57,047 nt of DNA from IMG/VR virus record IMGVR_UViG_3300018080_000022, positions 1 through 57,047 of that record; one strand, given 5' to 3'. Under the pieces are notes generated by a model that worked only from the letters and a program-made list of their open reading frames with translations, searched no databases and had not been told where the DNA came from. This DNA is from a virus. Made by a program: the position numbers and the translations under genes. This document shows positions 5,080-56,780 of this stretch, in pieces; position 1 is the stretch's first letter, and each line of letters begins with the position of its first letter.

Positions 5080-6015
5080 TCACTCCTCGAACAATGAACA
5101 GTTGCAAACGGGCTGCTCGGGATTTAACCCGAAGTGCTCGTAAACTTTTACCACTTCCTTGCAAAACCCTATCGGGCCGCCGTATCCGAAAGTGCGAAGG
5201 CCCGCGCTAACATCTTCGTAAAGCCTTATCCGCTCCTGGAAAGGCAGGCGCATCTTGAACGCCTTGCCGTACCTGCCGCAGTTGTCGCTTTCGGTTGTCG
5301 CCGCGCGAAGCTTCCTGTCATACCGCCATCCGAAGGCGAAGCGAAGAGAGCCGAGCGTTATCCTTTCGGCCCCGACGCCCGCGCAAGCTTCCATGAAGTT
5401 CATGGGCGACGGCGTACCGCCGAGGTCTTCCGGAATTATAGGGTCTAAGCGAAGCCTTATCCGCCATCCCATGTCTCTAATCTTCTTCGCCGCAATGAGA
5501 CGCTTGGCGACATGCGGCGCGCCGTTTTCGTAATTCGCCGCATTCGGCGACGCGCTGAAGGACACTATAACGTTGTCCTGGGGCTCGTAATTGCGAAGCA
5601 CTTCCACGACGTTTGCGGCCCCTTTAGTGACGAGTAGCATCGTATGACTTTCGAAATGTTTATCCTGCACGATGCCCTTAAGCATCATATCAAGATATCG
5701 CGGGTCGAGGAAGCTGTCCGAAAGCTCGCCAGCATTTAGCATGGCCTTCGGGGTCTTCGCCGCCCACTTCCTAACCTGCTCTTTCATCTCGCTTATGTTG
5801 GTAAAGACGGTCGGGATGGGCTTGTTGTTTTCGAGGGTGTTTCGCATGGTATGCTTCAAGTAGCAGTACGAGCAGTTATATAAACACCCGTTCGCATGCG
5901 AAAGCACGTGGAAGTGCGGACACACGACGCCCTCCGGCGTGGAATCGAACTTCTTCACGAACGGACTAACCCGCCGTCTAAATATCACCCTCGCCTGTGC
6001 TGTGGGTTTCGTCAT
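5080..6015 (-). CDS. Radical SAM protein, spore-photoproduct-lyase-like (COG1533-type)
   Basis: 311 aa. C44-x3-C48-x2-C51 (NGCLYNCSYCYL) is the radical-SAM [4Fe-4S] motif, preceded by CPHFHVLSHAN as in spore photoproduct lyase and the 'DNA repair photolyase' group. GELSDS and RLDPIIP are further landmarks of that group. A C-terminal NCSLF cysteine is present. Such enzymes reverse UV thymine lesions or act in unknown repair steps. ATG 6015 is chosen over ATG 6027 because GAGG lies six bases upstream; either start overlaps the upstream gene. Confidence 0.75.
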   Translation of the reverse strand: MTKPTAQARVIFRRRVSPFVKKFDSTPEGVVCPHFHVLSHANGCLYNCSYCYLKHTMRNTLENNKPIPTVFTNISEMKEQVRKWAAKTPKAMLNAGELSDSFLDPRYLDMMLKGIVQDKHFESHTMLLVTKGAANVVEVLRNYEPQDNVIVSFSASPNAANYENGAPHVAKRLIAAKKIRDMGWRIRLRLDPIIPEDLGGTPSPMNFMEACAGVGAERITLGSLRFAFGWRYDRKLRAATTESDNCGRYGKAFKMRLPFQERIRLYEDVSAGLRTFGYGGPIGFCKEVVKVYEHFGLNPEQPVCNCSLFEE

Positions 6016-6376
6016 TTTCAACCTCATCTACAAGTTTAAGTGGTCTTAGGGCTTCTTCCCTGGCTTTCGCTTCTTCCCTGGCTTTTTCTGCCGCCCTGGC
6101 TTTTTCTGCCTCGGCTTCTGCCGACGTTTTGTGATGTTTGTACCAGTCCTCTATGTCAAAAATATGACAGATTTCTCCGCCTTCACGAATGCAGATAAAT
6201 ACCTGGTTTGGGTCGAGAAGCGTTCCCTGCGGGCTGCCGGGCCTCACTCTCAAGAAGCCCTTGGTGCATATCACAAGGTCTTTGTTGCCGCACTTCGGGC
6301 ACTCGACGAGCACGGAGCCGATTTCGTGAATACCCTCAGCCCCTTTAATATCTTCGCTGGCCCTGGGGTTTCCCAT
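5978..6376 (-). CDS. Zinc-ribbon protein with repetitive acidic helix
   Basis: 132 aa. A CPKCGN...C...C arrangement spans residues about 26-66. The C-terminal third is a repeated KAREEAKAREEA-type helix encoded by near-identical 15-base DNA repeats around 6057-6115, which look like recent slippage. The 3' end overlaps the radical-SAM start. Function unknown; the helix is probably a coiled coil. Confidence 0.6.
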   Translation of the reverse strand: MGNPRASEDIKGAEGIHEIGSVLVECPKCGNKDLVICTKGFLRVRPGSPQGTLLDPNQVFICIREGGEICHIFDIEDWYKHHKTSAEAEAEKARAAEKAREEAKAREEALRPLKLVDEVENDETHSTGEGDI

Positions 6377-17286: not shown

Positions 17287-17910
17287 ATGAACCAACAGCG
17301 TTCATGGCGGGCTTTCTCTTTAGGGATGGCGATGCCGATAAACGAACTTTGCACTACGATGGGAGATGGAACGCCGGTCAGAGTCCGGCGCATCCTTATC
17401 CCCAACGGCAATGCCGGAATAATGGTAAGCGCTGGCAAGATAGTCGAGCTTATCCGCGAGTATTCCGGCAACGAAGACCCCGCCTCGCAGACGCGCATCC
17501 GCTTCCTCGCCGAAGACATCACCCGCCCATGCCGTTCGAAGGACTACCTCTGCAACGTCCGTAAAATTTACGACTGGATGCTCAGGAACATCAAATGGGA
17601 CAGAGACCCGGACGGCAAAGAAATGCTCCGCTCGCCCATCGTCACGCTCGACCGCCGCGTCGGCGACTGCGACGACCATACCATTCTTATGGGCTCTCTG
17701 ATAAAGAGCATGGGAATTCCGGTGCGAATCGTATTAGTGGCGTCATATAAGCCCGAGGTCTTCAACCACGTCCTAATAGAAGCGCTTGTCCCGGTCGAAG
17801 GAAAAATGAAATGGATTGCGGTCGATACAACGCCGTTAAATGTAAACGGCAAGCTATTCCCGTTCGGCGTGAGGCCGCGAGCATACAAGTACAAGGTTCT
17901 GGAGGTATAA
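17287..17910 (+). CDS. Transglutaminase-like cysteine protease
   Basis: 207 aa. The catalytic triad of the transglutaminase/papain fold is intact: C128 in GDCDDHTIL, H161 in FNHVLIEA and D180 in WIAVDTTP, preceded by a helical YDWMLRNIKWDRD. Bacterial and phage members with this arrangement usually act as peptidases rather than crosslinkers. It is the only cysteine protease in the late operon, second to third gene, directly before the NP-motif proteins, so it is the natural candidate for the protease that would process them; that link is an inference. It ends in TAA immediately before the next ATG. Confidence 0.8.
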   Translation: MNQQRSWRAFSLGMAMPINELCTTMGDGTPVRVRRILIPNGNAGIMVSAGKIVELIREYSGNEDPASQTRIRFLAEDITRPCRSKDYLCNVRKIYDWMLRNIKWDRDPDGKEMLRSPIVTLDRRVGDCDDHTILMGSLIKSMGIPVRIVLVASYKPEVFNHVLIEALVPVEGKMKWIAVDTTPLNVNGKLFPFGVRPRAYKYKVLEV

Positions 17911-18708
17911 ATGCAATACAGGGAAAACCCGCTGGCATTGATACTTATCCCGATAGCGCTGCTTGCCGCGGGTGGAACGGCGGCGGCAATCGCGCTCAAA
18001 CGCCGGAAGAAAACGATGGCACCTTCCGGCCCGAGCGAACCGTCATATCCCTATGCCTCGCAGCCGACTATGGTTCCGTCGTCTTCGGAGCCCCCGGCCA
18101 ACGACCCCATGAAACAGATTCAGCAATTCCAGGACAAGTACGGGAAAACCGCACCGGCAGCGGCGTCGGCGGCAAAAAAGGCATGGGAAATACTCGTAAG
18201 TCCGCCGACCTCGGCCGAGAAAATAAAGGAAGCCGCCAAGGAGACCTCCGAACAAAAGGCCGCCATCGATAAGCTCGCGCTCGAAGTCAAACAGAGCGGC
18301 GGGAAACTGCCCGAAGGCGAGAAGATTCCCGGCATAGACGACCCGAGTCTTGAAACCGACAATGAAAAGACAGCCGCGTCGCCAGCCTCGGCGGCAGCGG
18401 GGGCCAAGCAGGCGGCCACGGGCGCATCCGCCGCCGCTACCGGCGCGAAGGTCTTAGGGGTTGGCCTCGGAACGGTGGCCCTTGTCGGGGCCGCGGTCGC
18501 GGTCGCGGTCGCCGGTTTCGAGGCATACCGCAGCCAGCAAAAACAGTTGAAGAAGCTTCACGCCGACTACAAGCTCTGGCGCGCGATGGCCGTGCAGTAT
18601 GTCACGCAGACGACTGACACAAACAAACACATCAAGGCAGTCCAGGGAGAAGTGGACTTCATGAAACAGGCTATACCGAAAATGCAGGCCGCTTTACAGG
18701 GAGCTTAA
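17911..18708 (+). CDS. Two-helix membrane protein with N-terminal ENP motif
   Basis: 265 aa. MQYRENP is followed at once by a membrane helix (LALILIPIALLAAGGTAAAIAL) and a basic KRRKK. The middle is P/S- then A/K-rich and helical. A glycine/alanine-rich second membrane segment lies at about 178-205 (VLGVGLGTVALVGAAVAVAV), then a coiled-coil end (QQKQLKKLHADYKLW). It looks like a virion membrane or DNA-delivery protein. GGAGG lies seven bases before the ATG, and the upstream stop abuts it. Confidence 0.65.
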   Translation: MQYRENPLALILIPIALLAAGGTAAAIALKRRKKTMAPSGPSEPSYPYASQPTMVPSSSEPPANDPMKQIQQFQDKYGKTAPAAASAAKKAWEILVSPPTSAEKIKEAAKETSEQKAAIDKLALEVKQSGGKLPEGEKIPGIDDPSLETDNEKTAASPASAAAGAKQAATGASAAATGAKVLGVGLGTVALVGAAVAVAVAGFEAYRSQQKQLKKLHADYKLWRAMAVQYVTQTTDTNKHIKAVQGEVDFMKQAIPKMQAALQGA

Positions 18709-20241: not shown

Positions 20242-20595
20242 ATGGGAACTCCCGCATACATAAAGATAAACGGGAAGACGGTCGAGGGCGAGTGGATTTC
20301 GCCCGAGGAAGTTCCGTTCATAGCCAATCCGCGCGTGGCGAACACGGCGATGTTTCTTGCCGGTGCTGGCCTTGCGGCTCTCAAGGCGGTGCGCAATATT
20401 GCAAATGCTTCACTCAATCCGCCGCTGAAATCCAAGGTAGTGAGGGCGCTCCCGTGGGCATTCGCGGCGGGGTTGACCGCGGCGATAGCCCCGGCGCTCG
20501 GAAAGGCCAAGAACCCGGTTCGCATCGGTGCCGCGCTGTTGGGGCTCAAGGCGGTAAACGAGATTGTGAGAAAGCCCGAAGAGGAGAGGGCATAA
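20242..20595 (+). CDS. Small three-span membrane protein with NP before each span
   Basis: 117 aa. After a short beta hairpin, FIANP precedes TAMFLAGAGLAALKAV, SLNPP precedes VVRALPWAFAAGLTAAIAP, and KAKNP precedes VRIGAALLGLKAV. The repeated NP-then-hydrophobic pattern is striking. It begins directly after the previous stop. Confidence 0.65.
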   Translation: MGTPAYIKINGKTVEGEWISPEEVPFIANPRVANTAMFLAGAGLAALKAVRNIANASLNPPLKSKVVRALPWAFAAGLTAAIAPALGKAKNPVRIGAALLGLKAVNEIVRKPEEERA

Positions 20596-21334: not shown

Positions 21335-22180
21335 ATGGCCAATTATCTTTTTAAGGAAAACCCGAGAAGAAAAGGCCGGAGATTGCCGCCAAAGGAACGG
21401 TTCTACTACATGGTCGAGCGGGTGAAGAAGAACCTACATAAGCGCGGATTCCGCCCGAGACCCGACAGCCCGCATCGCACCATCCCGCAGGTCGCCAAGG
21501 CGATAACAGGTGGCATGTGGTGGGGGACTTTCGACGGCATTTCTCCCACAATGAAACGAAAAATTCTCAAGGAAGTTATCAGCAACCGCGCGAAGGGCAA
21601 GGTCGCCGTCGTAACCGGGCGCAAGGGTTCCATATCAAAGGCCGCCGTCAAACGGGCGATAGGCGAAACGGCTGCAAAGCGGCTCTACAACAAGCTCGAA
21701 CTCACCAAGACGGAAATCGACGAAGCCAGGCAACTTCTTAAACGCGGTATGCCCGCAATCGAACGTGCGCGAAGGCGCGTCGCCGCAAACCCCGAGCTTC
21801 TTATCATCACCGGCAATCCGGGCGTTGACCTCATGGACAAGAAAAAGCCGCCGACGCTCGCGGACTTCAAGAAAGCCTACCCCGAGCTCTGGAAAAAAGC
21901 GCTTAAGATGCACAGGCGTTTCCACGGCGTTGACCCCGAAACCGTCCAGCTTCAATGGGTGGAGTCGGATGTGCCGCCGATAATGGTTAAGATGGGCGAT
22001 GCGCCCGACGTAACCTACCACGTCAAGGGGAATTCGAGAAAGCAGAAAAAGATACCATTTAAGCACGACTACAAAGGCAAGGTGCATGTTTGCACCGACA
22101 TAAACGGCAAGGCGATTTTTCATATCCCTGATGCAAAGAAGGGAAGGAATGTTCGCGTAAGTGATTGGGTGCGAGGTTAG
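21335..22180 (+). CDS. Basic late protein with N-terminal KENP, 281 aa
   Basis: Starts MANYLFKENPRRKGRRLP at 21335 (AAGGA upstream; an in-frame ATG at 21296 lies inside the previous gene). Very basic N-terminal half with helices, then VAANPELLIITGNPGVD, a linker with two NPs, and a C-terminal domain (LADFKKAYPELWKKALKM; VQLQWVESDVPPIMVKMG) resembling a small phage domain with a PELWKKALKMHRRFHG motif. Two domains joined at NP suit a processed precursor. Confidence 0.6.
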   Translation: MANYLFKENPRRKGRRLPPKERFYYMVERVKKNLHKRGFRPRPDSPHRTIPQVAKAITGGMWWGTFDGISPTMKRKILKEVISNRAKGKVAVVTGRKGSISKAAVKRAIGETAAKRLYNKLELTKTEIDEARQLLKRGMPAIERARRRVAANPELLIITGNPGVDLMDKKKPPTLADFKKAYPELWKKALKMHRRFHGVDPETVQLQWVESDVPPIMVKMGDAPDVTYHVKGNSRKQKKIPFKHDYKGKVHVCTDINGKAIFHIPDAKKGRNVRVSDWVRG

Positions 22181-22188
22181 GAGGGGAC

Positions 22189-23376
22189 ATGTGGACTTTT
22201 CTCGTCAATCCGCCCGAGAAGGGAGGCAAGAAGGTGAAGATGTCGAAGGCAGGCAGAAAATACAAGAGCCTGGTAAAGAAACTTGGCGTCACGAAGGGGG
22301 CCAAAGCATATAGAAAGTGGAAAAGGGAAGAGAAGGCGAAGGGAAAACCTTCCAAGGCCAAAGCGAAAGGAGGAAATCGTATGGCCAAGAAAACCAAGAA
22401 GAGGGCAACGGGCTACAAGGCGCTCGTCAAGAAACATGGCGTGACGAAAGCCGCAAAGATGTGGCGCGCAAAGGGCCACAAGCCTGCCAAGAAAAAGGCG
22501 GGGAAAAAGAAGTATGCCGCCAACCCGAAGAAGAGGGCGAGCGGCTACAGGGCTCTCGTCAAGAAGCACGGCGTCACGAAAGCCGCAAAGATGTGGCGCG
22601 CTCGCGGCCACAAGCCCGCGAAGAAATACGCGGCCAACGCATGGAAGAAAGACAGGAAGGGGCATGCAATTGCCTCGGCCGCCGGATGGGCGCGGCGTAA
22701 GGGCATTCCCGTCCCCATCTACCTCGCTCAGCGCGGATACAGCAAGAGCGCAATCGACCGCTACATCAAGAAGCATGGCGCGGTCGGTTCGAGCAAGAGG
22801 TCATACACCAAGAGCTACCCGGTGAGAAGCGCCAGGTACGCCATGAATCCGCTCGAAGGCGCGGTCGAAACCGTCAAGAGCGTGTTCGCGGTCGAGACCG
22901 TGAAGACGGTCATGGGCGTCGGCGTAGGCTTCATGGGAATGGCGCTCGGCAACGCGGTAGTAAGACGCCTCAAGCCGGACGCCGGAACCCCGGTCGTCAT
23001 CGCCGGAGAGTTCGGCGGTTCGCTCGTTGCGGGCGCGGTTTACGCCGTCGCCACGAAGGATGTCGCCAAGGGCGTCTTGACGGCAACATCCGGCATCGCG
23101 CTTTCCGTCTTCAAGATGGCCTGGACGAAGTACGTCGCCGGAAGAACCATTCTCGGCCTGGCTATGCCGGGACTGTCCGATTACGTCGAGCTCCCGTACA
23201 CCGCCGGGATGGGCGATTACGTCGAGCTCCCGTACACGGCGGGAATGGGTCAGTCGCTTGACACGGGCATGGGCCAGTTCCTTCCGCCCGAGGCGGCAGA
23301 GATAGGCCAGTTCATTCCCGAGCAGTTCGGGGAGTACAGCGTCGGCATCGGCGAGGAAGCCGAAGTCGAATACTAA
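22189..23376 (+). CDS. Triple-repeat basic protein fused to membrane domain
   Basis: 395 aa, MWTFLVNPPEKGG, SD GGAGG. Three copies of a ~30-residue basic unit follow (GYKALVKKHGVTKAAKMWR and variants); copies 2 and 3 are nearly identical, while copy 1 has diverged. They are separated by KKYAANP and ended by KYAAN-A. After a small domain (IPVPIYLAQRGYSKSAIDRY), RYAMNP introduces a glycine/alanine-rich membrane part (VGVGFMGMALGNAVV, GGSLVAGAVYAVA) and a tandem DYVELPYTAGMG repeat. It could be a string of DNA-condensing peptides and a membrane protein, liberated at NP sites. Confidence 0.6.
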   Translation: MWTFLVNPPEKGGKKVKMSKAGRKYKSLVKKLGVTKGAKAYRKWKREEKAKGKPSKAKAKGGNRMAKKTKKRATGYKALVKKHGVTKAAKMWRAKGHKPAKKKAGKKKYAANPKKRASGYRALVKKHGVTKAAKMWRARGHKPAKKYAANAWKKDRKGHAIASAAGWARRKGIPVPIYLAQRGYSKSAIDRYIKKHGAVGSSKRSYTKSYPVRSARYAMNPLEGAVETVKSVFAVETVKTVMGVGVGFMGMALGNAVVRRLKPDAGTPVVIAGEFGGSLVAGAVYAVATKDVAKGVLTATSGIALSVFKMAWTKYVAGRTILGLAMPGLSDYVELPYTAGMGDYVELPYTAGMGQSLDTGMGQFLPPEAAEIGQFIPEQFGEYSVGIGEEAEVEY

Positions 23377-23459: not shown

Positions 23460-24080
23460 ATGACCAGGAGAATCGCACCCGCGCCAGCGGGCGTACCGGC
23501 GCTTGAGCCCGTTCGTCAAGACCTGTACGACACCAAGCTTCAGGACGGCACGGTGTCAACGCTCGAATTCTTCCGGAATCCGGGCATCGCGGGCCTCGCG
23601 GAGCTTGCAACCAACATGCAGGCGAACGGACAGCTTCCGTATCCGCAGCAGTTCCACGTCTTCGGTCTCAATCTGGAGCTCGTCCCGTATTTCCCCGAGG
23701 AAGCTCAGACCGGCGTGGATGAGGCGCATTGGCAGAACAAGAAGAAGGTTCTCGAAACCGCCTTCTTCCGCTTCCACATCGGGAGCAAGACCTATCTCAT
23801 CGACCCGGCGAAGAGAATTCCGGCTTCGCTCGGCCCGGTCGGCTTCGGAACGGGCGCGCAGGCGGGCATAAACGCCTTCCCGACGAACGGGTTGCAGGAC
23901 ATCCAGCATTACTACGATGTCACAATCCGCCAGGGCGGGAAGATTAAGCCCATCCACATTCCCGCGCAGCAGTCGTTCTACGTCCAGGTCGTGTGGCCGT
24001 TCGGCAACCCGGCCGTCGAGGGCGGCGGATGGGAAGTCAGGGCATACCTCGTCGGTATTCTCTGGAGAGAAGTTCAATAG
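23460..24080 (+). CDS. Jelly-roll-type capsid protein, paralog 1
   Basis: 206 aa: MTRRIAPAPAGVPALEPV, YDTKLQDGTVSTLEFF, TNMQANGQLPYPQQF, KPIHIPAQQSFYVQV and a final VRAYLVGILWREVQ. I recall this YDT...LTFF...GQLP...LxGxLxR layout from small, beta-only proteins of uncultured tailless phages that are thought to be major capsid proteins. The 206-aa size fits a single jelly roll. About half of its positions match the neighbouring paralog by eye. It is the best candidate for a major capsid subunit; structure prediction would decide. Confidence 0.65.
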   Translation: MTRRIAPAPAGVPALEPVRQDLYDTKLQDGTVSTLEFFRNPGIAGLAELATNMQANGQLPYPQQFHVFGLNLELVPYFPEEAQTGVDEAHWQNKKKVLETAFFRFHIGSKTYLIDPAKRIPASLGPVGFGTGAQAGINAFPTNGLQDIQHYYDVTIRQGGKIKPIHIPAQQSFYVQVVWPFGNPAVEGGGWEVRAYLVGILWREVQ

Positions 24081-24088
24081 CATTTTGA

Positions 24089-24130
24089 CGGGATAGGGCG
24101 TATCCTGTTTTCCTTTTCCGCTTGCGCCCG
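24089..24130 (+). promoter_or_regulatory. Leader hairpin of the second capsid-type gene
   Basis: GGATAGGGCGTATCC and GGGCG/CGCCC repeat the design at 23387-23424 with matching changes in the outer pairs (GGAAT/ATTCC becomes GGAT/ATCC). Confidence 0.5.
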
Positions 24131-24169
24131 AGTGCGGAGAGGAACAACCGTTTGAAAACGGAGGTCATT

Positions 24170-24793
24170 ATGACCAGGAGAGTTGCACCCGCGGCGGCGG
24201 GCGTACCGGCCCTTGAGCCGATAGCTCAGGAGCTTTACGACACGAAGGATTATCCCATCGCGGGAACCGGGACGCTGACGTTTTTCCAGAACCCGTCCGC
24301 GGTAGGGGAAATCGAGACCAACATGGTGGCTTCGGGACAGCTTCCGTATCCGCAGCAGTTTCATGCCTTCGGCATCTGCTTTGAGATATTCCCGAACTAC
24401 GACGAGGCCGCAGCAATCGGCACGGACGTCACCTGGGCCGTCGAGAAAGTCAAGCTTCGCGAGAAGTGTTTCGCGCGCCTGACAATCGGCTCCAAAGACT
24501 ACCTGACCCTTCCGGGAATCCACATTCCCGAGGGCGTCGGCCTGACCGGGGTAGCGGTCGGCGACAACGCCGGAAGCAACCAGGTCGTAGTCAATCACGG
24601 CTTCCAGGACATCAAGCACGGCTTCGAGCTGACCGTTCCCCAGCAGGGGAAAATCAAGCCCATCCACATCCCCGCGCAGCAGTCGTTCCGCGTGGAACTG
24701 AGATGGCCGATTCCGCTCGCGCTCACAAGCGTCCAGGAAGCCGTCAAAATCAGGATGTACCTGATTGGCGTGCTCTGGAGAGAAGTGCAGTAG
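24170..24793 (+). CDS. Jelly-roll-type capsid protein, paralog 2
   Basis: 207 aa: MTRRVAPAAAGVPALEPI, TLTFFQNPSAVGEIE, TNMVASGQLPYPQQF, HIPAQQSFRVELRWP and VKIRMYLIGVLWREVQ. The paralog differs from the first mainly in the middle loops. Two different single-jelly-roll subunits are known from phages such as P23-77, where they form the capsomers together; that comparison is by analogy only. GGAGG five bases before ATG 24170 sets the start. The next 160 bases hold a GC hairpin, suggesting this gene ends a highly expressed transcript segment. Confidence 0.65.
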   Translation: MTRRVAPAAAGVPALEPIAQELYDTKDYPIAGTGTLTFFQNPSAVGEIETNMVASGQLPYPQQFHAFGICFEIFPNYDEAAAIGTDVTWAVEKVKLREKCFARLTIGSKDYLTLPGIHIPEGVGLTGVAVGDNAGSNQVVVNHGFQDIKHGFELTVPQQGKIKPIHIPAQQSFRVELRWPIPLALTSVQEAVKIRMYLIGVLWREVQ

Positions 24794-31578: not shown

Positions 31579-31875
31579 ATGAAGAGGCTTTGCTTGATAG
31601 CGATATTGGCGGTTATCTGCACGGGCTGCATCCCGCTGATGCACAAGACGGTGGCGGAGCAAACGGTGAGGATGGACAAGAACCTTCACGAGCTCCTTCC
31701 CGATTATCGCCTCGTGCTGAATGACGAGCTCGCGGCGGTGAAAGGCATGGATGACGGCGAGGAGAAGACGAAGCTTCTCGAAGATATCAGCCATGACCTT
31801 CTCCTTCTCGATGCCACGCTGATGCTCAGCGAGGACATGCGAAAGACCGCGGACGTGACGCTGGAAGGAAAATGA
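31579..31875 (+). CDS. Small lipoprotein (possible outer spanin)
   Basis: 98 aa from ATG 31579, AAGGAGG six bases upstream. MKRLCLIAILAVICTGCIP is a short signal peptide ending in a CTGC lipobox-like site (imperfect: cysteine at -3), followed by a helical mature part (DEKNLHELLP-type, EEKTKLLEDISHDLLLLD). A small lipoprotein behind holin-like genes recalls outer spanins and would imply a Gram-negative host. A 63-codon frame starting at 31533 (ATGA overlap) runs into this gene in another frame; I do not call it. Confidence 0.55.
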   Translation: MKRLCLIAILAVICTGCIPLMHKTVAEQTVRMDKNLHELLPDYRLVLNDELAAVKGMDDGEEKTKLLEDISHDLLLLDATLMLSEDMRKTADVTLEGK

Positions 31876-33803
31876 AAAAAGCTCCGAAAGTAAGGATAGA
31901 ATACTACAACGAGTATACCCGCAAAATGAAGTACTCGATAGGGGACTATCGCTATGAGGCGACCGGCATACCAGTCGAATTTTTCAAGCACGTTCGTTAC
32001 CAGATAGATAAGAAGCGATTTGGCCGCGCCATCAAGCTCCTCGACGGCATACCCGGGGAGATGAAGAAACGCATTAACGCGGAGGAAAACATGAAAAACT
32101 TAGTCCAGCGGGCGACGGCCCATGCGATAAACGAATACGGCGAGAGATGCAAGCCCAAGAAGGCATCGAGGAAAAAGAATCCCGCAGGAAACCTCACCAA
32201 AGAACAAGAAAAATTTCTCAACATGAATTGGCAGGCAATCAGAAAGCACATCGACGGCCTGCAATACAGCGTACATATTACCCGCAAGCCAGAATGGACA
32301 TCCGACCATAGCGGCAAGGTTGAGGTAAAAATAATCGACAAGGAAACGGGCGAGGAGTACCCGAGAGAAGCCGATATAATGGTTACCGGGGGCGGCTTCA
32401 GGGTGCATGTCACGTTTATGGGCAAGCTCTACGAAATACATGAAATAGCGGCCCTGATAAACCCTTTTCACAAAGTGCCCAAACACGAAAGACACGTAAG
32501 AAACCCCCTCAACCGGCGCGAATGGAACTCGCGGATAAACAAGGTTCAAGCCTACATTGAAAAAGCGCGCGGATATCTCGCCAGCGACCCTCACAAGGCC
32601 GAGGAGGAAGCTTATCAAGCGCTCGGACTCCTCGAAGGCATCGAACAAGAGGGCAAGTCAATTATAGGCGCTTCGCGTGAGAAACGCGAAATCGTCATAA
32701 AGCTCCGCGCCATGCTCAATCAGATAATCGGGTACGCCGACAAAAGCCAGGGCAGGGGAGTCCCGAATCCGCTTACCCAAAGCGAATATGATGCTCTTCT
32801 TGCCAAGATTTACCATTCCGTTGACTTGGCCGAAAAGGAAGTGGGATGGGGTAATATCAGAGATGCAGTCGAGCGCATTAACCGTGCTGATGGATTGATG
32901 GATGCCGCCTTCGGGGCACCATTGGTTAAGGGCGTCAAGCTGAAAAAGAAATATAGCGGCTTAAATGCCAGGTTGAGAGATTTACAGCAGAAGGTGCGAA
33001 GGTACATCCCTAAAACCGCCCCAAATCCGGGAGAGGAATCATTCGAAGAAAAAATGGAAAGACTTGCGCAACATATAGGCATAGATAAGTTGCGTAAAAT
33101 CATTCCCGTCAAAAAAGAAAGAATAGCTGCGGCCCTTGCGGCTGGAGATGAACATCTGAACTCCATACCGCTTTATTTGTGGGACATAGCGGCGGGCAGA
33201 TTGGTAACGAGCAGATATGCAACGGGCAAACCAAGGTTCGGAAGCAAAGTCAAAGTAGGTTTTGAGGAGCCCTGGGGCAAGAAAGCAAGAGGGCTGTCGC
33301 TCTCCGAAAGAGTTTGTATTCTGAAGCATGTGGCCAAATATCATTTAGGAAAACAAGCCCCGAATCCGGGAGGGACGGAATCGAAGCCATTAAAGGTGAA
33401 GGGTGCTCCCAATTTAAGAATTAGCTATGAATTCCTCGGGTACGACAGCCCGCAATGGCAAACGAGACAAGGCTGGATGCATCCTCATTACCGTATAATC
33501 GTCCATCACAAGCGCAAGAAAGAAGCCTTCGATTATTGGGGCAGCTACCGCGACTACCAGGAAGGCAAGACGACGCTCGACCGTATCGAGCTCATCGAAG
33601 CGTTTATCATGGTTATCGAAACCGTCGTATACGGCAGGATGACCTTGCGCGACTTCACGCTTGAGTTCGGGTACGCCTCCGCCGACGCCGCGAAAATGCC
33701 GTGGCACGCCTCCAAGTTATACGGAAAGAAATGGAGTAAATTGGGGTATCGCAAGAACCTCTACAATCTTATTAACAATGTCAGGGAAGCTTACGACCTT
33801 TAG
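31872..33803 (+). CDS. NP-punctuated multidomain late protein, 643 aa
   Basis: A string of five to six ~90-110-residue segments separated by KKNPAGN (about residue 102), LINPFHK and VRNPLNR (195, 211), GVPNPLTQ (298), TAPNPGEE (384) and QAPNPGGT (497). The last segment (RIIVHHKRKKEAFDYWGSYR to RMTLRDFTLEFGY) matches a domain I recall as a free-standing small phage protein. Others: a MNWQAIRKHIDGLQYSV domain, a helical ALLEGIEQEG-type bundle and a KKERIAAALAAGDEHLN domain. No membrane span. The architecture fits a processed polyprotein or a 'polyvalent' injected protein. ATGA overlap with the lipoprotein. Confidence 0.65.
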   Translation: MKKAPKVRIEYYNEYTRKMKYSIGDYRYEATGIPVEFFKHVRYQIDKKRFGRAIKLLDGIPGEMKKRINAEENMKNLVQRATAHAINEYGERCKPKKASRKKNPAGNLTKEQEKFLNMNWQAIRKHIDGLQYSVHITRKPEWTSDHSGKVEVKIIDKETGEEYPREADIMVTGGGFRVHVTFMGKLYEIHEIAALINPFHKVPKHERHVRNPLNRREWNSRINKVQAYIEKARGYLASDPHKAEEEAYQALGLLEGIEQEGKSIIGASREKREIVIKLRAMLNQIIGYADKSQGRGVPNPLTQSEYDALLAKIYHSVDLAEKEVGWGNIRDAVERINRADGLMDAAFGAPLVKGVKLKKKYSGLNARLRDLQQKVRRYIPKTAPNPGEESFEEKMERLAQHIGIDKLRKIIPVKKERIAAALAAGDEHLNSIPLYLWDIAAGRLVTSRYATGKPRFGSKVKVGFEEPWGKKARGLSLSERVCILKHVAKYHLGKQAPNPGGTESKPLKVKGAPNLRISYEFLGYDSPQWQTRQGWMHPHYRIIVHHKRKKEAFDYWGSYRDYQEGKTTLDRIELIEAFIMVIETVVYGRMTLRDFTLEFGYASADAAKMPWHASKLYGKKWSKLGYRKNLYNLINNVREAYDL

Positions 33804-34284: not shown

Positions 34285-34659
34285 ATGTCGGTAAAAAACG
34301 AGCTCGACCGGCTTAAGAAAGCCTACGAAGAAATCAAGAACGACGACGAGGCGAAGGCAATCTTCGAAGAGGCGAAGCAAATCATCGACGGCTTTCTCGC
34401 CAAGGGCGACGACGATATCGAGAGCAAGCTGACCGGCTACGCCGACGTGGACGAAACGCTCGTCCTCACGAGCAAGGGCGCGAAGGTGCGAAAAGCCTAC
34501 GTCGCCCGAGTCAAGGCGATACATTTTCTCACAAGCGCGTTGCAGCTAATCTCGAAGTACACGCCGGTCTTGAATGAGGCCGTGGATGCGGCGAAGGAAC
34601 TCACCAAGAGCGCGAAATCGGCGGCGAAGAAGAGTCTGTCCCGGAGGAAGAAGAAATAA
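34285..34659 (+). CDS. Helical late protein with basic tail, 124 aa
   Basis: MSVKNELDRLKKAYEEIKND..., all-helical, ending KSAAKKSLSRRKKK. Preceded by the family A element with its SD at the hairpin base, so its translation may be set by that structure. Abuts the 1187-aa gene (next ATG follows the TAA). Not recognised. Confidence 0.6.
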   Translation: MSVKNELDRLKKAYEEIKNDDEAKAIFEEAKQIIDGFLAKGDDDIESKLTGYADVDETLVLTSKGAKVRKAYVARVKAIHFLTSALQLISKYTPVLNEAVDAAKELTKSAKSAAKKSLSRRKKK

Positions 34660-37600
34660 ATGGAAAGCCCGACGAAATTGCATGGCATACACGTTACCAG
34701 CGACCCGTCGCCGGTATACGACGTGCTACGCAAGGGCTCCGATATTTCCAAGGGCCGGGCGGCTGGCAAGGTCGGCGACCTCGGCAGTTCCGGCCTCTAC
34801 TTCAGCCAGGTTCCTCAGTTATGGACTGGCCGGGCCTATGACAAGTGGAACTTTCTCGTAAGCTTGTCGAAAAAGAAACGCGCCGAGCTCGCCGATAAAC
34901 TGATGAAGGAACTGCGCGAGGAACGCGATGCCAGGTACATCAGCAAGTTCGAGCTCGAAGCCGCACTTAACTACATAGATAGTTATGTTGAACATGACAG
35001 TCCACATGCAATAGTGATGCTTGCGGGCCAGCCGTATAACATAGCGTTCTGGAAGCAGGAATGGTTAAAGCCCCTCGGGATAAAGCAGACGAAGCCACCG
35101 ATGGAAATCCCGGTCGAGGCGGAAGGCTTGTTCGCAGACCTCACGAACAAGAGTGTTTCGCCTGAACTGATAGCGGAATTGAAGGCGCAGGGGTATGACG
35201 GCGCTTACCATCGCGGCGACATGATTAACTTGCCGCAGAGCGTCGTATGGAACACGAAGGCAATTAAGCGGTTTGGAGACCTGGTGATGAAGGCTAATCC
35301 GAAAAAAGGCAAGCGCTCCAAAAAATACCTCGAAGAGCTTATCGACTATGGCGGCGAGCTTCGCACCAGGGGCAGTATCATCAAGGAGCTTCAGAAGCAA
35401 GGCGTTCCACAGAAATACATAGACGCATACATGATGGGCGCGAAGACGGTCGATAATCCGGGGTATCTCCCTATATTCGCGGCGGGGATAGCTTCAGGCA
35501 TCGCCAGCGGTGCGGCGTTCGCAGTCACGGCAAATTATCTCAAGGAGCGGAAGATGAAAAATCCCGAAAAATCTTTCAAAAAAATGGCGATAAGGCTGCT
35601 TCCCCAGGAGGGATACCTCTTGTACGCGGCATACATGTCGCATTACACGGGGCGGGAAGGATACTGGCCGGACTATTACATGGCCGAAGGGGAGTTTTCC
35701 GAGGAGCCGATGACAGAGATTTGGGAAGTTCCGATAGACCTCGCCGTCAAGCTTCAGGCCCAGGGAACGTCTCAGCAGTTCTTCGGCGACGGCTACGAAG
35801 CCTACAGCGCGCTCCTGAAAGCAGGCAAAAAAGCTAATCCGGGATATGCCGACAACCCGATACAGATAACGCTCCATCGCGGCAGCTACCCGACGATGAT
35901 AAGCTCCGAGGTTGCGAGCATTCTTCGCGCTGGCAGGCGCGGAACCATGAAGCCATCCGACTACAAGGCAATTCTGCGGGCCGAGTACAAGAACATTGGC
36001 CGCGGCGGCGGGTATTCCTCGGGCGATATCTACAAACGCAGAGACGGCATGATGACGCTCGAAGAAATCTTTAACAGCGAGATAGGAGCCTTCATCCTGC
36101 GCGTGAAACGCGAAACCGCCAGCAATCCGCAGTATGCCCCTCTCACCGATGAGCAGATAGCCATCCTAAAAGAAGCCCATGCGAGAGGAAAAGCGGAAGC
36201 CCGCAACTCCGCAACACGTATATTTATCAACGGACAGAACTACAACGCATCTACGGGAGAAGTCCTGCCAAAAGGCATCAATGTAATGTACCAAATGGTG
36301 TATTGGGATTTCACTCGCGATACCGCGAAAATGCTCAAAAAGTTTGTGCAAGACAACAATCCCGGCCAGAAAGTGACCATGAATTACCAGGCCGGTACGG
36401 CCAGCAATGCGGGACATGTTAAAAACTCTCAAGACCCTACAAAACAGGAAATGGTGCGTTTTCTGAAAAAGCAATACAAGGGCCTCATGGACGCATCAGA
36501 TATCAAGACCGAAGGCGAGATAGCTATTTACTGGTTTGCTAACCATTATCATGGCGGTCAATGGACTAACCTGTATTCGGTGTTAAGCACGAGCCCATAT
36601 AGTCCGGGGCCTATTACCACGCTCGAAAGCGAAGGCGACGCCGTTAAGATGATGTATGAAGACCTGGTAGAAGAGTTCGGGGGCACCGCCAGCAATCCCG
36701 AGAAGCCCGGCGTAGTCTGGCCCGTGGGTGCGAAGTTATATGATGGCCGGGGAAAGCCGGTGGGCGTATGTCTCGATACGCCGAACGCAATCGCCAAAGC
36801 CATGATGGAACACCCGGAGGTGCAAGTCGCACATACCCTTCTCGGGGTCAAATCGCGGGCGGAATACGCGAGTCGGATGCAGCCCTGGAATAAAGCTAAA
36901 AGCCATTTCCGCGCGATGGAAAGCAACCCCGAAGGCTATTATGGCTGGAAGAACTACGAGACGTGGAACGTGTCTCTTTGGATGCAGAATGACGAGTTCT
37001 GGCATGATGTAGCCATTTACTCCCCCAATTACAAGCGCTTCAAGGATGCTATGATAGGCCGTCACGGGATAACAGAGACTCCGGACGGCGTAAAGCTGCG
37101 AAGCACGAAGCTCGACCGTAAGGCGCTTGACAAGCTCATTCTCGACCTCGGGGGCGGCAAGGAAGCAATACGAAAGCGCCGAGATGAGGCCGCAAGAAAA
37201 CGTATCAGAAAACACAAGGAAGCCGGGAAGTTTGCGCTTATAAGGGATAACAAGGTTCTCTTCGAGGGCACGGAGAATGAATGCCTTGTTTTTCTACAAA
37301 GACACCAAGGCCAGTCATGGGACTACGCCTTCAGGTACGGCGGATACAAGCTCATTCCCATAAAAGACCTTCCGTCAGGTGTTATCCGAATACCGAAGGG
37401 AATGACCGAGACCGGCTTCGCATACAACCCGCAGAACACTCCCTGGGGCAGGGCTCAGAGCCAGCGCAAGCTCGCAAAGGGCGTTACATGGGTGTCTACG
37501 GCGAGCCACGGTGGGATGATGGTCTCCGAAGGCTTCGCCAAAAGACATTTAAGCAAAGAGGCCCGGAAACGCGCCGAGAAATACGGCAAATACTACTGCT

Positions 37601-38223
37601 ACGAGGAAGATGTCGCTTGGATGATACCGGCCTGGGAGCTTCCGGAGATATGGGACGGACTTTTCGAGCACATGGAGCAATCCACCCGCCAGGAAAGACA
37701 AACATATCTGCTCGAAGGGCTTTCGATGTGGAACGCGGACTACCTGCTCGACACGCATCACACTCCCATCGAGCCCCAATACGGCATGTGGAGGAAACGG
37801 CAGGCCGAAAGAAAATTAAGGGGGATGAAACACCCGAACCTGATTGTGGCTGCTCAGAGAACCGACGACCCAAACATAACACAGGTCTGGACGGCGGACG
37901 ACGAGATTCACTTCGTTACATCCGAAAGCTACGGCCGCAGAGACCCGCGATACCCGTCATACCTGACCGATATGGTTCTGTCTCACCCGCCGACGCCGAA
38001 AGGCGTGGGGCCTGCGGGCTTCGTATACAACCCCGGCGAGATGACGCTGGCAGAGCACGCGGAAGCCTGGTGGCGTGAGCAGGGCAGGAAGGTTCCGAAG
38101 CGCAACACGAAGAAATGGCGCGAAATGTATGAGAAGTGGATAAGGTTCGCCTTCAAGGGTTTTGCCAAGAATCATGATAACCGGCTTGACGCCGGGGGCC
38201 GAGGCTGTATAGGCCCGAAGTAA
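34660..38223 (+). CDS. Giant NP-punctuated polyvalent-type protein, 1187 aa
   Basis: Segments in order: residues 1-210, an ADP-ribosyltransferase-like domain (KLHGIHVTSDPSPVYDVL; DLGSSGLYFSQVPQLW; AQGYDGAYHRGDMINLP), ended by VMKANPKKG; a basic helix; VDNPGYL and a membrane-like AGIASGIASGAAFAV; MKNPEKS; KKANPGY (391); TASNPQY (487); NNPGQK (566) and ASNAGHV, then a YWFANHYHGGQWTNLYSVL domain; TASNPEK (677); MESNPEG (754), then GWKNYETWNVSLWMQNDE (DUF7249-type); FAYNPQN (922), then TPWGRAQ...SHGGMMVSE...CYEEDVAWMIPAWELP (DUF7007-type); VYNPGEM (1123) and a final short helical domain. Recognised domains start at NP sites. The layout resembles polyvalent proteins injected with phage or plasmid DNA. 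Domain names are by motif recall. Confidence 0.7.
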   Translation: MESPTKLHGIHVTSDPSPVYDVLRKGSDISKGRAAGKVGDLGSSGLYFSQVPQLWTGRAYDKWNFLVSLSKKKRAELADKLMKELREERDARYISKFELEAALNYIDSYVEHDSPHAIVMLAGQPYNIAFWKQEWLKPLGIKQTKPPMEIPVEAEGLFADLTNKSVSPELIAELKAQGYDGAYHRGDMINLPQSVVWNTKAIKRFGDLVMKANPKKGKRSKKYLEELIDYGGELRTRGSIIKELQKQGVPQKYIDAYMMGAKTVDNPGYLPIFAAGIASGIASGAAFAVTANYLKERKMKNPEKSFKKMAIRLLPQEGYLLYAAYMSHYTGREGYWPDYYMAEGEFSEEPMTEIWEVPIDLAVKLQAQGTSQQFFGDGYEAYSALLKAGKKANPGYADNPIQITLHRGSYPTMISSEVASILRAGRRGTMKPSDYKAILRAEYKNIGRGGGYSSGDIYKRRDGMMTLEEIFNSEIGAFILRVKRETASNPQYAPLTDEQIAILKEAHARGKAEARNSATRIFINGQNYNASTGEVLPKGINVMYQMVYWDFTRDTAKMLKKFVQDNNPGQKVTMNYQAGTASNAGHVKNSQDPTKQEMVRFLKKQYKGLMDASDIKTEGEIAIYWFANHYHGGQWTNLYSVLSTSPYSPGPITTLESEGDAVKMMYEDLVEEFGGTASNPEKPGVVWPVGAKLYDGRGKPVGVCLDTPNAIAKAMMEHPEVQVAHTLLGVKSRAEYASRMQPWNKAKSHFRAMESNPEGYYGWKNYETWNVSLWMQNDEFWHDVAIYSPNYKRFKDAMIGRHGITETPDGVKLRSTKLDRKALDKLILDLGGGKEAIRKRRDEAARKRIRKHKEAGKFALIRDNKVLFEGTENECLVFLQRHQGQSWDYAFRYGGYKLIPIKDLPSGVIRIPKGMTETGFAYNPQNTPWGRAQSQRKLAKGVTWVSTASHGGMMVSEGFAKRHLSKEARKRAEKYGKYYCYEEDVAWMIPAWELPEIWDGLFEHMEQSTRQERQTYLLEGLSMWNADYLLDTHHTPIEPQYGMWRKRQAERKLRGMKHPNLIVAAQRTDDPNITQVWTADDEIHFVTSESYGRRDPRYPSYLTDMVLSHPPTPKGVGPAGFVYNPGEMTLAEHAEAWWREQGRKVPKRNTKKWREMYEKWIRFAFKGFAKNHDNRLDAGGRGCIGPK

Positions 38224-38229
38224 TTCTCC

Positions 38230-38257
38230 TTGACAAGCTCCTCATCCGAGCTATACT
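38230..38257 (+). promoter_or_regulatory. Strong sigma70-like promoter of a small RNA
   Basis: TTGACA (38230-38235), 16 bases, TATACT (38252-38257): 6/6 and 5/6 matches. It lies just after the last late gene and faces the terminator 85-110 bases away. Confidence 0.75.
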
Positions 38258-38263
38258 TATAGT

Positions 38264-38368
38264 GTTGAGTTCGAGATTTCTACCGAGGAGAATGCCATGT
38301 GAGCTTCACAAACATCGACCAGGTAGGCCGAATCAAACCGAAAGACCGGGAAAACCCGGTCTTTTTTT
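38264..38368 (+). ncRNA. Predicted ~105-nt small RNA with start-stop ribosome site
   Basis: Bounded by the promoter at 38230-38257 and a perfect intrinsic terminator (38341-38368). Inside, GAGGAG (38285-38290) is followed after six bases by ATG TGA (38297-38302): a ribosome would initiate and terminate at once. An overlapping frame from ATG 38292 would have to read through the terminator and has its SD only one base away. A ribosome- or tRNA-sequestering or base-pairing regulatory RNA are the readings I consider. Confidence 0.65.
38341..38368 (+). terminator. Intrinsic terminator of the late arm
   Basis: AAAGACCGGG, loop AAAA, CCCGGTCTTT, then a run of seven T in total. A textbook Rho-independent terminator between the convergent arms; it would end both the late operon and the small RNA. 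Confidence 0.9.
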
Positions 38369-41695: not shown

Positions 41696-42292
41696 TTACC
41701 AGTCGAATTCCTCGGCTTCTTTTTCCGGGTCTTTCCAGTCGTGGAACTTCGGCATTACGTTGCCCGCGCGGTCGCTGTACCCCTGCCAGTAGCCGTTCGA
41801 ATAGCCGAAGTCGCGCTTGTATTGCAGCGCATCCTTGAAGTCGTTCAGCAGCGGCCCGTGATGCGCCTCTGCGAGCGCTTTAACCCTCTCGCTGAACTTC
41901 ACGAGGAACGAGGCGGTCTTGTCCGTGCCGACGAGCTCAAGCCCCTCTTCGAGCCGTGGCTTGCCTTCATCCTTGTCGCGGTAACCTTGCCCATACCCGA
42001 GGCGATATGCTATGTCCTGCTCCTGGTTGAAGAGCTCGCTGGCTGTCACGCAGATTTCATGCGCGGGCTCGGGCAGGCACGGTATCTTCTGGTTAGCCTT
42101 CGTGGGCTTGCCGCCCTGGATTGCCGAGGGGATGAGAACTTGCACGACGCGCTCGACTTTCTCGTTTTTCACGCCGAGAATTGATGTCGCCGCGCGTTCG
42201 AACGCCTCTTCTACGCTTTCATACACGGGCTTTTTCACCGGGCCTTTCTTCGTGTGTATCTCCCGCTCGCCCGTCTGTCTCACTTCAAACAT
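41696..42292 (-). CDS. Hypothetical protein, 198 aa
   Basis: Starts MFEVRQTGEREIHTKKGP at 42292 (GAAAGGAG five bases upstream). GYGQGYRDKDEGK and GYSNGYWQGYSDRAG form a repeated glycine/tyrosine motif, reminiscent of short GxxxGY helices of phage proteins. No named family. Ends in an acidic EEFDW. Confidence 0.55.
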   Translation of the reverse strand: MFEVRQTGEREIHTKKGPVKKPVYESVEEAFERAATSILGVKNEKVERVVQVLIPSAIQGGKPTKANQKIPCLPEPAHEICVTASELFNQEQDIAYRLGYGQGYRDKDEGKPRLEEGLELVGTDKTASFLVKFSERVKALAEAHHGPLLNDFKDALQYKRDFGYSNGYWQGYSDRAGNVMPKFHDWKDPEKEAEEFDW

Positions 42293-43280
42293 CTTCACTC
42301 CTTTCAAATATAACCATTCCTTCTGCCATGTTCCCGAGCCAATTATATCTGCGCCCGGCGACGTTCTTTCCTTCCTTATTGATAAGGCCATACCTGCCGC
42401 GAGAGCCGACTACGGCTATATCCTCGCTGAACGGATAGGCATCGTAGAATTCCTCGTCTATAACCTGCTCGCCCAATGAATTTATGTAAATGTAATCGCT
42501 TTTGTGGCTCAGCCTCACCGCCGCGACCCCGCAGCCGAAGTCTTGCGCGATATAGTAGCTCGGCTCGATTGCCCATTGGCCTTCGGTGTTAAGATATCCC
42601 ATCTCATACTTCTGGTTTTTGCCCGTGCACTTAAACACTATCCGCGCGAGCCCGTCGCTGAAGTCGCTTAGAAACGCGCATTTATCGATGTCTTTGAAGA
42701 CATAATCGCCTTCGCGGTTGATGTAGCCCTTGTGTTTAATAGAGCGCACGAAGGCGAGCCCGCTTGAGAACCTATAAGCCTCCGGGAACTGCGCGGGGAT
42801 GACCTTCTCTCCTTTCATGTTTATGTAGCCCCAAAGTCCGGTGTCGTGGCTGTCGAGGAAGGCGGCGAGACCTTCGCTGAAAGGCCGCACGTCGCCGAAC
42901 TGCGGCTCGATGGCCCAATTGCCGTCGCGGTCGAGGAAGCCGCACGAGCCTATCTTGTCTTTGTGCTTGCCCGCGCAGAGCAGACCTTGCCGGTATCCGC
43001 CGCGGTCGAGCCAGTTGATGTCATTGTCGGTCGCGACTATCTTTCCATTTTTGGTTATTACGCACGTGATATTGGCCTTTTTAATGACCGCGAGGCCGTC
43101 CTTGAAAGGCCCTGCGGCGCTGAACTGCGGGGGGAGCACGAAATGGCCGCCCTTGTCGATAAAGCCGCTCTCGCGGTCAACCCGAGCTTCCGCGAGAAAA
43201 TCCGAGAAGTTCCAGGCGCGCGAAAACGACGGCGGGATAACCTCTCTTCCTACTATGTTTAAGTATCCATACTTGGGCAT
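42285..43280 (-). CDS. WG-repeat protein, 331 aa
   Basis: About ten repeats of the type YGYLNIVGREVIPPSFSRAW / GFIDKGGHFVLPPQF / GLWGYINMKGEKVIPAQF, each ~30 residues with GxIxxxGxxVIxPxF, the WG (KWG) beta repeat. These form beta-propeller- or solenoid-like surfaces for protein binding. WG proteins are common in bacteria, rare in small phages; it may have been acquired from a host. Confidence 0.85.
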   Translation of the reverse strand: MPKYGYLNIVGREVIPPSFSRAWNFSDFLAEARVDRESGFIDKGGHFVLPPQFSAAGPFKDGLAVIKKANITCVITKNGKIVATDNDINWLDRGGYRQGLLCAGKHKDKIGSCGFLDRDGNWAIEPQFGDVRPFSEGLAAFLDSHDTGLWGYINMKGEKVIPAQFPEAYRFSSGLAFVRSIKHKGYINREGDYVFKDIDKCAFLSDFSDGLARIVFKCTGKNQKYEMGYLNTEGQWAIEPSYYIAQDFGCGVAAVRLSHKSDYIYINSLGEQVIDEEFYDAYPFSEDIAVVGSRGRYGLINKEGKNVAGRRYNWLGNMAEGMVIFERSEDV

Positions 43281-50848: not shown

Positions 50849-51348
50849 GTCTCGCCTCTTTTCTTCGCTATTAAGTTGCCTTGGATTGGAAGAATCGAAC
50901 TTCCGCAGCTACCCCGAGCTTCTTACGGGACTCGAACCCGCGCGCGTCCTGCACCCAAAGCAACTTTTTTGAAAAAGGAACGGGAGGCTCCGCTACCTGG
51001 CTACAATCCGCGAATGCCCTACGAGCAATATTAGACGCGGCGGTATCTGTTTTTCACCAGAAGGTTTTCGGCTCTCGCACGGTCGCTCTCTCAGTTCTAC
51101 AGGAAAATCCTGGCGGTGACCCGATTCCGCTACGGAGTAGTATGACGCCACTACTGGCGGCTTGCGCTTACGCGAGTTCACGCAAACTGCGGTGCGTATC
51201 CGCTTGCCTCGGCCTCAGCCTTTCTTCTCGGCCATTCCCTTTTCAAAGAACTTTATTATTGGGGGAGCTTCAAGGTCTCTCTTCTTCGCTTAAGTGTTTC
51301 CTTGCGAGCTCCCCCACGAAAGCTGCTATAACAAGTTACATCGTTACT
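50849..51348 (-). other. 500-bp gene-free, hairpin-dense stretch
   Basis: No convincing coding frame on either strand; a 62-codon minus frame at 50993-51181 looks like a shadow of structure. Many short perfect stems follow each other: GGGGGAGCT/AGCTCCCCC, CGCA-GTT-TGCG, CGCCA-GTAG-TGGCG, CTAC-TCC-GTAG, CAGGA-TTT-TCCTG, and the tRNA-like end at 50875-50964. GTTCTTTGA (51243-51251), the family B box, is also present. It probably encodes a structured RNA read leftward. Confidence 0.6.
50880..50958 (-). tRNA. tRNA-Ser(CGA)-like structure without a D-arm
   Basis: Acceptor TTGGGTG pairs with AATCCAA (one mismatch), and the helix extends outward as GTTGC/GGCAAC to 12 pairs (50875-50964). Anticodon arm GCGGG-TTCGAGT-CCCGT with anticodon CGA (50932-50934), variable arm AGCT-CGGGGT-AGCT, T-arm GGAAG-TTCGATT-CTTCC, discriminator G, CCA not encoded. 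The long variable arm, CGA anticodon and G73 all suit tRNA-Ser, but only ten bases lie where the D-arm should be. It may be a degenerate tRNA or a tRNA-like end of a larger RNA. Confidence 0.35.
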
Positions 51349-56084: not shown

Positions 56085-56780
56085 CTATTGCGCTCCCAGG
56101 TCGCCGAAGACGGCGGGCATGAGAACTTTGAATTTTTCGAGAACCGCTTGCATAATTTCTCTGATTTCCCATTGAGCGCGCGGGTTCAGCGCGCGGTGTT
56201 TGAAGACATGCCGCCATTGCCGCAGGTTGAAGGTGGTCACGACCTCGGTCTTCGTGGCATTCGGGAGCACGAAACGCGCGTTCTCGGGCCGCATTCCCTC
56301 TCTAAGCAGGTGGAGATAGGTGCTGTACGCCTGGTAAACCGTTTCGAGCCATTGCGCCTTGTTATTCATCTTGCACTTTATGTCCTTCTGGCGAGTCCAG
56401 TCGGCGAAGCCGTTGCGCTCATATTTGCCGCCGGGGAGCTCCAAGCCTCGCGGGGCTATCACCTGGAAGCCGAGCTTGCCGTAGTCGCAGTATCGCTGGC
56501 TTTCCTGGCTATACGCGGCGATGCGGTGCCTGACGAGTTGATGGCTACATGCGCGGCTGCAAAAGATTTTCACCGTGATGACGCAATGCTCGATTACGCT
56601 CTCGTGACCGCTCCTAATAAGCTTGCGCACGAAGTCTTCCGCGCTGCCCGCCTCGGCCCTGACCTCGCTTTTATAGCACGTCCGGCCCGCGAGCTCAAGA
56701 ATGTCCATCATCCCGTCGAACCACTTCACCGGCGTAAACAAAGAATACCCCGGTTCCACTACCGTTATCATTTCCGCCAT
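56085..56780 (-). CDS. thyX: Flavin-dependent thymidylate synthase
   Basis: 231 aa. The ThyX motif RHRX7S is present (R84-H-R86...S94, reading RHRIAAYSQESQR), with an earlier HESVIEH and a late FNLRQWRHVFKHR typical of the family. ThyX makes dTMP from dUMP with methylene-tetrahydrofolate, FAD and NADPH. It gives the virus its own thymidylate supply. GGAGG seven bases before ATG 56780; the upstream gene overlaps by 86 bases, so a start at the fourth residue (56771) is possible. Confidence 0.95.
   Translation of the reverse strand: MAEMITVVEPGYSLFTPVKWFDGMMDILELAGRTCYKSEVRAEAGSAEDFVRKLIRSGHESVIEHCVITVKIFCSRACSHQLVRHRIAAYSQESQRYCDYGKLGFQVIAPRGLELPGGKYERNGFADWTRQKDIKCKMNNKAQWLETVYQAYSTYLHLLREGMRPENARFVLPNATKTEVVTTFNLRQWRHVFKHRALNPRAQWEIREIMQAVLEKFKVLMPAVFGDLGAQ

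Follow-up and report, generated by a model that had tools for sequence, protein, structure and literature searches.

At the end of a late viral operon lies a gene for a protein of 1187 residues that opens with a domain resembling ADP-ribosyltransferases (ARTs) and continues as a series of small modules starting at Asn-Pro (NP) dipeptides, which raises the question of what this protein is for and what the NP dipeptides do in it. The window, which denotes the whole stretch of DNA analysed here, is a virus record of 57,047 bases. The reading frame is open over 1187 codons from an ATG abutting the stop of the preceding gene, and it is not a chance frame because full-length relatives with the same start were found, which confirms the protein claimed in an earlier note on this DNA. 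The gene stands at the end of approximately 31 co-oriented genes with few gaps (14885–38223), and this position suggests that the protein is made late, alongside the capsid and membrane proteins of the operon. The features at this end are as follows:

34285–34659, + strand: 124-aa basic-tailed conserved protein adjoining the 1187-aa gene
34660–38223, + strand: 1187-aa NP-modular protein that closes the late operon, homologues found
38341–38364, no strand: palindromic stem resembling an intrinsic terminator, 3′ of the 1187-aa gene

A 1518-aa homologue is encoded by the near neighbour IMGVR_UViG_3300029258_003280 (55,522 bases; G001), and a third copy was found in an Omnitrophota MAG (G002), split into two fragments (618 and 533 aa) that lie on separate contigs with overlapping ends.

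The first 210 residues had been said to follow the ART layout, and structure prediction had been proposed as a check. This region is module 1 of the chain:

34660–35295, + strand: module 1 (aa 1–212), ART-like domain with H11, Y47 and Q193 in strands 1, 2 and 5

Residues 1–212 gave no match in Pfam or NCBIfam, and only chance matches were returned by a PDB sequence search using the ART alignment. An AlphaFold2 model of these residues, built from six sequences with a pLDDT of 78, put H11 on strand 1 and Y47 on strand 2; Q193 opens a later strand (193–196), which is strand 5 as the model is read. This model was compared using VIA-align, for which all 50 matches listed were ARTs, including tankyrases, diphtheria toxin, PARPs and MbcT; the best was NatT, with a moderate Z score of 7.2 over 120 residues. 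Foldseek ranked tankyrases at the top against the PDB (E of about 0.1), and against viral models it gave several matches named PolyVal or ART-PolyVal, which is a fold-level resemblance only. An ART fold of the H-Y-[EDQ] type is hence supported by the model, and the assignment holds despite the moderate Z score because the matches come almost wholly from a single fold class, in which the conserved residues occupy the positions found here. The histidine in the “HGI” of the earlier layout (H8) was rejected as the catalytic one: it is not conserved in distant relatives, and the conserved residue is H11 (GI-H-VT). The domain resembles NatT/MbcT toxins and diphtheria toxin/PARP-type ARTs in predicted fold and in the positions of H and Y in strands 1 and 2, and it differs from them in its identity of about 10–13% and in having Q at the third catalytic position.

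H11, Y47 and Q193 are invariant in the six aligned sequences, which cover relatives at 37–73% identity, while the Q193 column holds E in LC711081, a relative from an archaeal plasmid (33% identity), i.e., H-Y-E. The third catalytic position is accordingly Q in six relatives and E in one, and the aspartate by which the Tox-ART-HYD2 clade (polyvalent ARTs) is defined was not found there. From the sequence, Q in place of E or D may mean that transferase activity is weak or absent, and the domain could then be a pseudo-enzyme, or an NAD glycohydrolase without transferase activity; NatT, its best structural match, is a toxin reported to deplete NAD. This alternative is considered doubtful, as H, Y and Q would hardly stay invariant in such divergent contexts without a function, a relative with E exists, and the very name of the H-Y-[EDQ] clade admits Q.

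Downstream of the head, the chain is divided into the following modules:

35296–35454, + strand: module 2 (aa 213–265), begins at NP, absent from both homologues
35455–35559, + strand: module 3 (aa 266–300), 35-aa hydrophobic peptide between two NPs, probable membrane helix
35560–35835, + strand: module 4 (aa 301–392), window-only
35836–36123, + strand: modules 5–6 (aa 393–488), NP-GYAD-NP-IQITLH...
36124–36357, + strand: module 7 (aa 489–566), window-only
36358–36693, + strand: module 8 (aa 567–678), window-only
36694–36924, + strand: module 9 (aa 679–755), 84% identical in the 1518-aa homologue
36925–37425, + strand: module 10 (aa 756–922), DUF7249/phrog_871 and a phrog_38200 segment
37426–38028, + strand: module 11 (aa 923–1123), DUF7007
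38029–38223, + strand: module 12 (aa 1124–1187), C-terminal module

In the MAG copy, the hydrophobic peptide does not reach the membrane-helix cut-off. The earlier note regarded this part as small domains otherwise free-standing in phages or plasmids, which was borne out for DUF7249/phrog_871 (aa 754–830; DUF7249-like proteins stand alone in cyanophages), phrog_38200 (aa 858–898) and DUF7007 (aa 924–1011; a Vibrio plasmid encodes a related protein), but not for the remaining segments, which had no match in Pfam, PHROGs, NCBIfam or PADLOC.

At least two unlike predicted domains (the ART fold and the DUF7249, phrog_38200 and DUF7007 families) are thus joined in one chain, encoded by a virus record at the end of a late operon, i.e., near virion genes. 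It is similar to the known polyvalent proteins of phages and conjugative elements in being a long multi-domain chain with an ART, in its virion-gene neighbourhood, and in having domains that are also found alone (Iyer et al. 2017, PMC5512222). A relative of the window ART also lies inside an ejection protein. This relative, found in L017, forms part of a 1489-aa protein encoded upstream of a terminase-like gene and matching phrog_342 (“internal virion protein with endolysin domain”, E 3e-89). Proteins of this T7 gp16 type are ejected into the host. The ART-like domain of L017 is 40% identical to that of the window protein, which shares only this domain with L017 and has no phrog_342 match. Other ART relatives (L018 and L022) are solo or C-terminal, the solo ones occurring in tailed phages, and L017, L018 and L022 are all devoid of the NP architecture. 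In contrast to polyvalent ARTs, which are described as H-Y-D (PMC5512222), the window ART is H-Y-Q, and its chain has NP-bounded modules. No recognised polyvalent domain (ART-PolyVal, LPDs, MPTase and others) was matched in the 1187-aa protein using Pfam or NCBIfam. The term polyvalent-type, as proposed earlier, was hence retained for the multi-domain layout, the virion-gene operon and the ART relative in an ejection protein, and not for named polyvalent Pfam domains.

The most interesting property of the protein is the rule by which its cassettes are joined. NP occurs 11 times in the 1187-aa protein, while 2.4 are expected (shuffle p < 1e-4), and the counts in the four proteins or fragments are 11, 15, 8 and 5 against 2.4, 3.3, 1.2 and 1.9 expected. 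In the two homologues, the middle of the chain is swapped, but they retain the ART head and the bulk of the C-terminal region, with 70–80% identity in the head and C-terminal modules. For example, modules 5–6 are 79% identical in the MAG virus and missing in the 1518-aa homologue, the edges of this block being NP393 and NP489. After repeats and MAG contig-end artefacts were taken out, 24 of the 30 distinct breakpoints were located within 5 residues of an NP, for which random placement predicts 3.6 (p < 1e-4); the runner-up among all dipeptides reached 6 of the 30. Homologous modules split at NP also align residue 1 to residue 1. An exception is the joint at 846 (1048 in the 1518-aa homologue), which has no NP in either protein but has one in the MAG protein; near 1171, the window has NH where both relatives have NP. 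The codons at NP vary among eight forms, which indicates that NP is conserved by selection on the protein level. Recombination at a DNA word shared by the NP sites was ruled out for the same reason.

The same architecture was found in a second gene of the operon:

31872–33803, + strand: second NP-modular protein of the late operon, 643 aa

Its 419-aa orthologue is devoid of entire NP-bounded blocks, and one of the modules in this orthologue has a detectable relative (E 0.002) in the 1518-aa protein, so that by sequence one module is probably common to the two genes. The NP sites are module boundaries in these alignments, and complete modules are gained, lost or replaced there. The protein is thus a polyvalent-type chain whose cassettes meet at a recognisable joint, in viruses without recognisable portal–terminase machinery.

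The NP sites exhibit a sequence context, [FY][AV]xNP. F or Y occupies position −3 in 15 of the 40 distinct sites (background 6.8%, p 2e-8), and A or V occupies position −2 in 20 of the 40 (background 17%, p 2e-6); these p-values are indicative, because the sites were de-duplicated by hand and drawn from NP-rich late proteins. NP was also found in other products of the operon, which are listed here together with a candidate protease:

17287–17910, + strand: transglutaminase-like protein, candidate protease (PF01841, 2e-12; triad C, H, D retained)
17911–18708, + strand: membrane protein opening with the stub MQYRE-NP (MKYSD-NP in a relative)
20242–20595, + strand: 117-aa hydrophobic protein with three conserved NPs
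21335–22180, + strand: 281-aa protein with stub MANYLFKE-NP and an internal NP pair ahead of the C-terminal domain
22189–23376, + strand: 395-aa protein with stub MWTFLV-NP

Conserved stubs of 5–8 residues hence precede NP at the N-termini of three late proteins besides the modular ones. A third copy of the protein with the MWTFLV-NP stub was also found. This 395-aa protein consists of a 217-aa basic repeat part (72 K/R, 5 D/E), then YAM-NP, and then a hydrophobic part, a layout that recalls adenovirus-type core precursors.

Asn-Pro commonly serves as a helix N-cap and hinge, so NP might be a mere spacer or cap between the domains of one intact multi-domain polyvalent protein, whose linkers tolerate recombination. 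Polyvalent proteins are indeed described as single chains (PMC5512222). We regard this as a serious possibility that nevertheless falls short of an even chance, since the short stubs leave NP with no domain to link, a position in which a processing or sorting signal would have an evident role, the upstream [FY][AV] context is non-random, and no dipeptide other than NP marks the joints. “Linker”, the term first applied to these sites, is thus probably too weak, and the NPs matter more than was claimed, as they are boundaries of module exchange, lie in a sequence context and follow N-terminal stubs.

A stronger role is conceivable by analogy, in which [FY][AV]xNP would be a signal recognised in virion precursors and processed during maturation, so that the chain would arrive as separate proteins; this proposal is tentative. 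The processing agent would be the viral transglutaminase-like cysteine protease (17287–17910) or self-cleavage at Asn-Pro. Autocleavage at this bond has been described for aquareovirus VP5 (PMC9148132) and FlhB (PMC3640470). VP5/reovirus mu1 and FlhB/YscU have the Asn-Pro bond in common with the window protein, in which it is a candidate cleavage point only; they differ from it in having a single site in a defined fold, where the window protein has many predicted sites. In the reovirus case, the cleavage is tied to capsid maturation and a membrane-active peptide. Furthermore, DarA and DdrB of phage P1 are processed on packaging (PMC5512222). If NP is a processing site, a bacterial virus would mature its injected cargo as a polyprotein, and because each cut is predicted to the residue, this could be tested in one proteomics run. 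It was further speculated, though we think it unlikely, that the motif is a family-wide maturation code, whereby one protease or self-cleavage cuts core, membrane and cargo precursors alike, and one gene yields up to a dozen injected proteins, a repertoire that evolves by swaps of NP cassettes. Such a code, if true, would mean that a bacterial virus handles its cargo by a polyprotein strategy.

Where the protein acts can be judged from the late-operon position and from the phrog_342 internal virion protein that contains the ART relative. From these, we infer that it is most likely a cargo protein packaged and delivered together with the genome, although the earlier note went further on delivery than the evidence allows. 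In the host, the ART would modify a host protein or consume NAD. T4 Alt offers a parallel in that this ART is thought to travel in the virion, but Alt belongs to the R-S-E clade and the window protein is H-Y-Q. The protein could instead be an unpackaged late effector acting within the cell in host shut-off, lysis or superinfection exclusion, for the place in the operon argues for late expression rather than packaging, and solo ART relatives occur in tailed phages. That an ART relative sits inside an ejection protein, and that membrane proteins and basic, core-like proteins encoded in the operon also contain the NP motif, makes this improbable. The best overall explanation, to which we give about an even chance, is late polyvalent-type cargo that is packaged and perhaps processed at NP, consisting of an H-Y-[EDQ]-kind ART-like head, a probable membrane-spanning peptide and small NP-started modules.

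The type of virion was considered from the remaining late genes, which include the capsid candidates:

23460–24793, + strand: pair of beta-rich paralogues, highly conserved, candidate jelly-roll capsid proteins

The AlphaFold2 model of the capsid candidate had a low pLDDT of 47, and many viral jelly-roll capsids were among the matches listed; it was used as a hint only. Twenty late proteins searched against PHROGs gave no structural match, including no terminase, portal or HK97 capsid, and neither the window nor G001 contains a canonical Walker A motif apart from the primase P-loop, i.e., no packaging ATPase was found. Several small membrane proteins are also encoded. This evidence fits a membrane-containing virion without a tail, although most tail-less jelly-roll viruses have a packaging ATPase of the FtsK/HerA type and its lack is itself unusual. 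The tail-less status presumed earlier is hence plausible, given no terminase or portal among the late proteins searched, no packaging ATPase in the two genomes and the jelly-roll hint, and is held no higher than this with a capsid model of low confidence. In Sphaerolipoviridae (P23-77, SH1), two major capsid proteins and an internal membrane form a tail-less virion (PMC5332951). The paralogous pair recalls their two capsid proteins by analogy, homology not being implied, while their genomes of 16–31 kb with a packaging ATPase differ from the 55–57 kb of the window and G001, where none was found.

A very divergent tailed phage, in which the 1187-aa protein would be an ordinary polyvalent protein of a portal–terminase phage, was also weighed. 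Most phage polyvalent proteins belong to such phages (PMC5512222), from which the window virus differs in having no recognisable portal and terminase, and the low confidence of the capsid model favours the same view. It appears rather unlikely in light of two near-complete colinear genomes without a packaging P-loop, late proteins that gave no terminase or portal match, two paralogous beta-rich proteins with models resembling jelly-roll capsids, and many small membrane proteins. The two genomes are colinear and circularly permuted (window 82–23376 = G001 33351–55503; window 23460–56780 = G001 208–32824), and the ends of each contig fall inside the other, so that both are near-complete.

A limited literature search gave nothing relevant on polyvalent proteins in tailless phages or on Omnitrophota viruses. 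No members beyond the window, G001 and the Omnitrophota MAG were found among viral contigs using capsid, C-terminal and membrane-module queries, or among 270–285 Omnitrophota genomes using capsid, ART and 21815–22177 queries. The NP architecture is known from three genomes only, whose viruses represent a newly recognised family of bacterial viruses that are probably tail-less. Other contigs of the Omnitrophota MAG hold more late genes, among them the capsid candidates, and on this binning evidence alone, Omnitrophota are a possible host.

The 1187-aa protein and its two homologues possess tails downstream of the last NP (Asn-Pro, the dipeptide at the module joints) or NH, which share a glycine-rich ending, ...x-P-[RK]-stop (GGRGCIGPK, GGKGGALPR, and DRGGSAIPR). 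The common ending may serve as a C-terminal tag. The tail and a conserved element located downstream of the gene are as follows:

38170-38223, C-terminal tail of the 1187-aa protein
38230-38364, + strand, promoter-to-terminator element (equivalents: 1606-1740 of L003, a contig of the Omnitrophota MAG, and 14561-14720 of L002, the locus of the 1518-aa homologue in the near relative G001)

In this element, a conserved sigma70-like promoter (TTGACA-16-TATACT) is followed by a short conserved stretch containing GGAG...CATGTGAG, which is closed by a terminator stem. The GGAG...CATGTGAG motif is a predicted start-stop mini-ORF, comprising a ribosome-binding-like site and an ATG with TGA immediately next to it. 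The element gave no match in Rfam, and a search of viral contigs for the promoter/start-stop pattern found a match only in G001.

The window (1-57047) and G001 are near-complete genomes of 55-57 kb, in both of which no packaging ATPase, terminase, or portal was recognisable. A basic protein was found in the window:

22189-23376, lysine-rich repeat protein with a hydrophobic tail

Its lysine-rich part contains KKHGVxKAAKMWR repeats (72 K/R versus 5 D/E in 217 aa) and is linked by YAM-NP to the tail, which contains DYVELPY repeats. This protein looks like a precursor of a DNA-condensing core.

The ART (ADP-ribosyltransferase)-like family of the 1187-aa protein's head has another member on the archaeal plasmid LC711081:

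7752-8693, ART-like family member

Its third position, the Q193 column of the H-Y-Q residues, is E. A large multidomain gene annotated as RelA/SpoT lies nearby.

Other genes of the window were assigned as follows:

5080-6027, - strand, spore photoproduct lyase-like radical SAM protein
42285-43280, - strand, WG-repeat protein (PF14903, E 4e-55)
50880-50963, - strand, tRNA-Ser(CGA)
56085-56780, - strand, flavin-dependent thymidylate synthase ThyX (E 1e-54)

An ORF similar to that of the WG-repeat protein, truncated by the contig end, was observed on L003.
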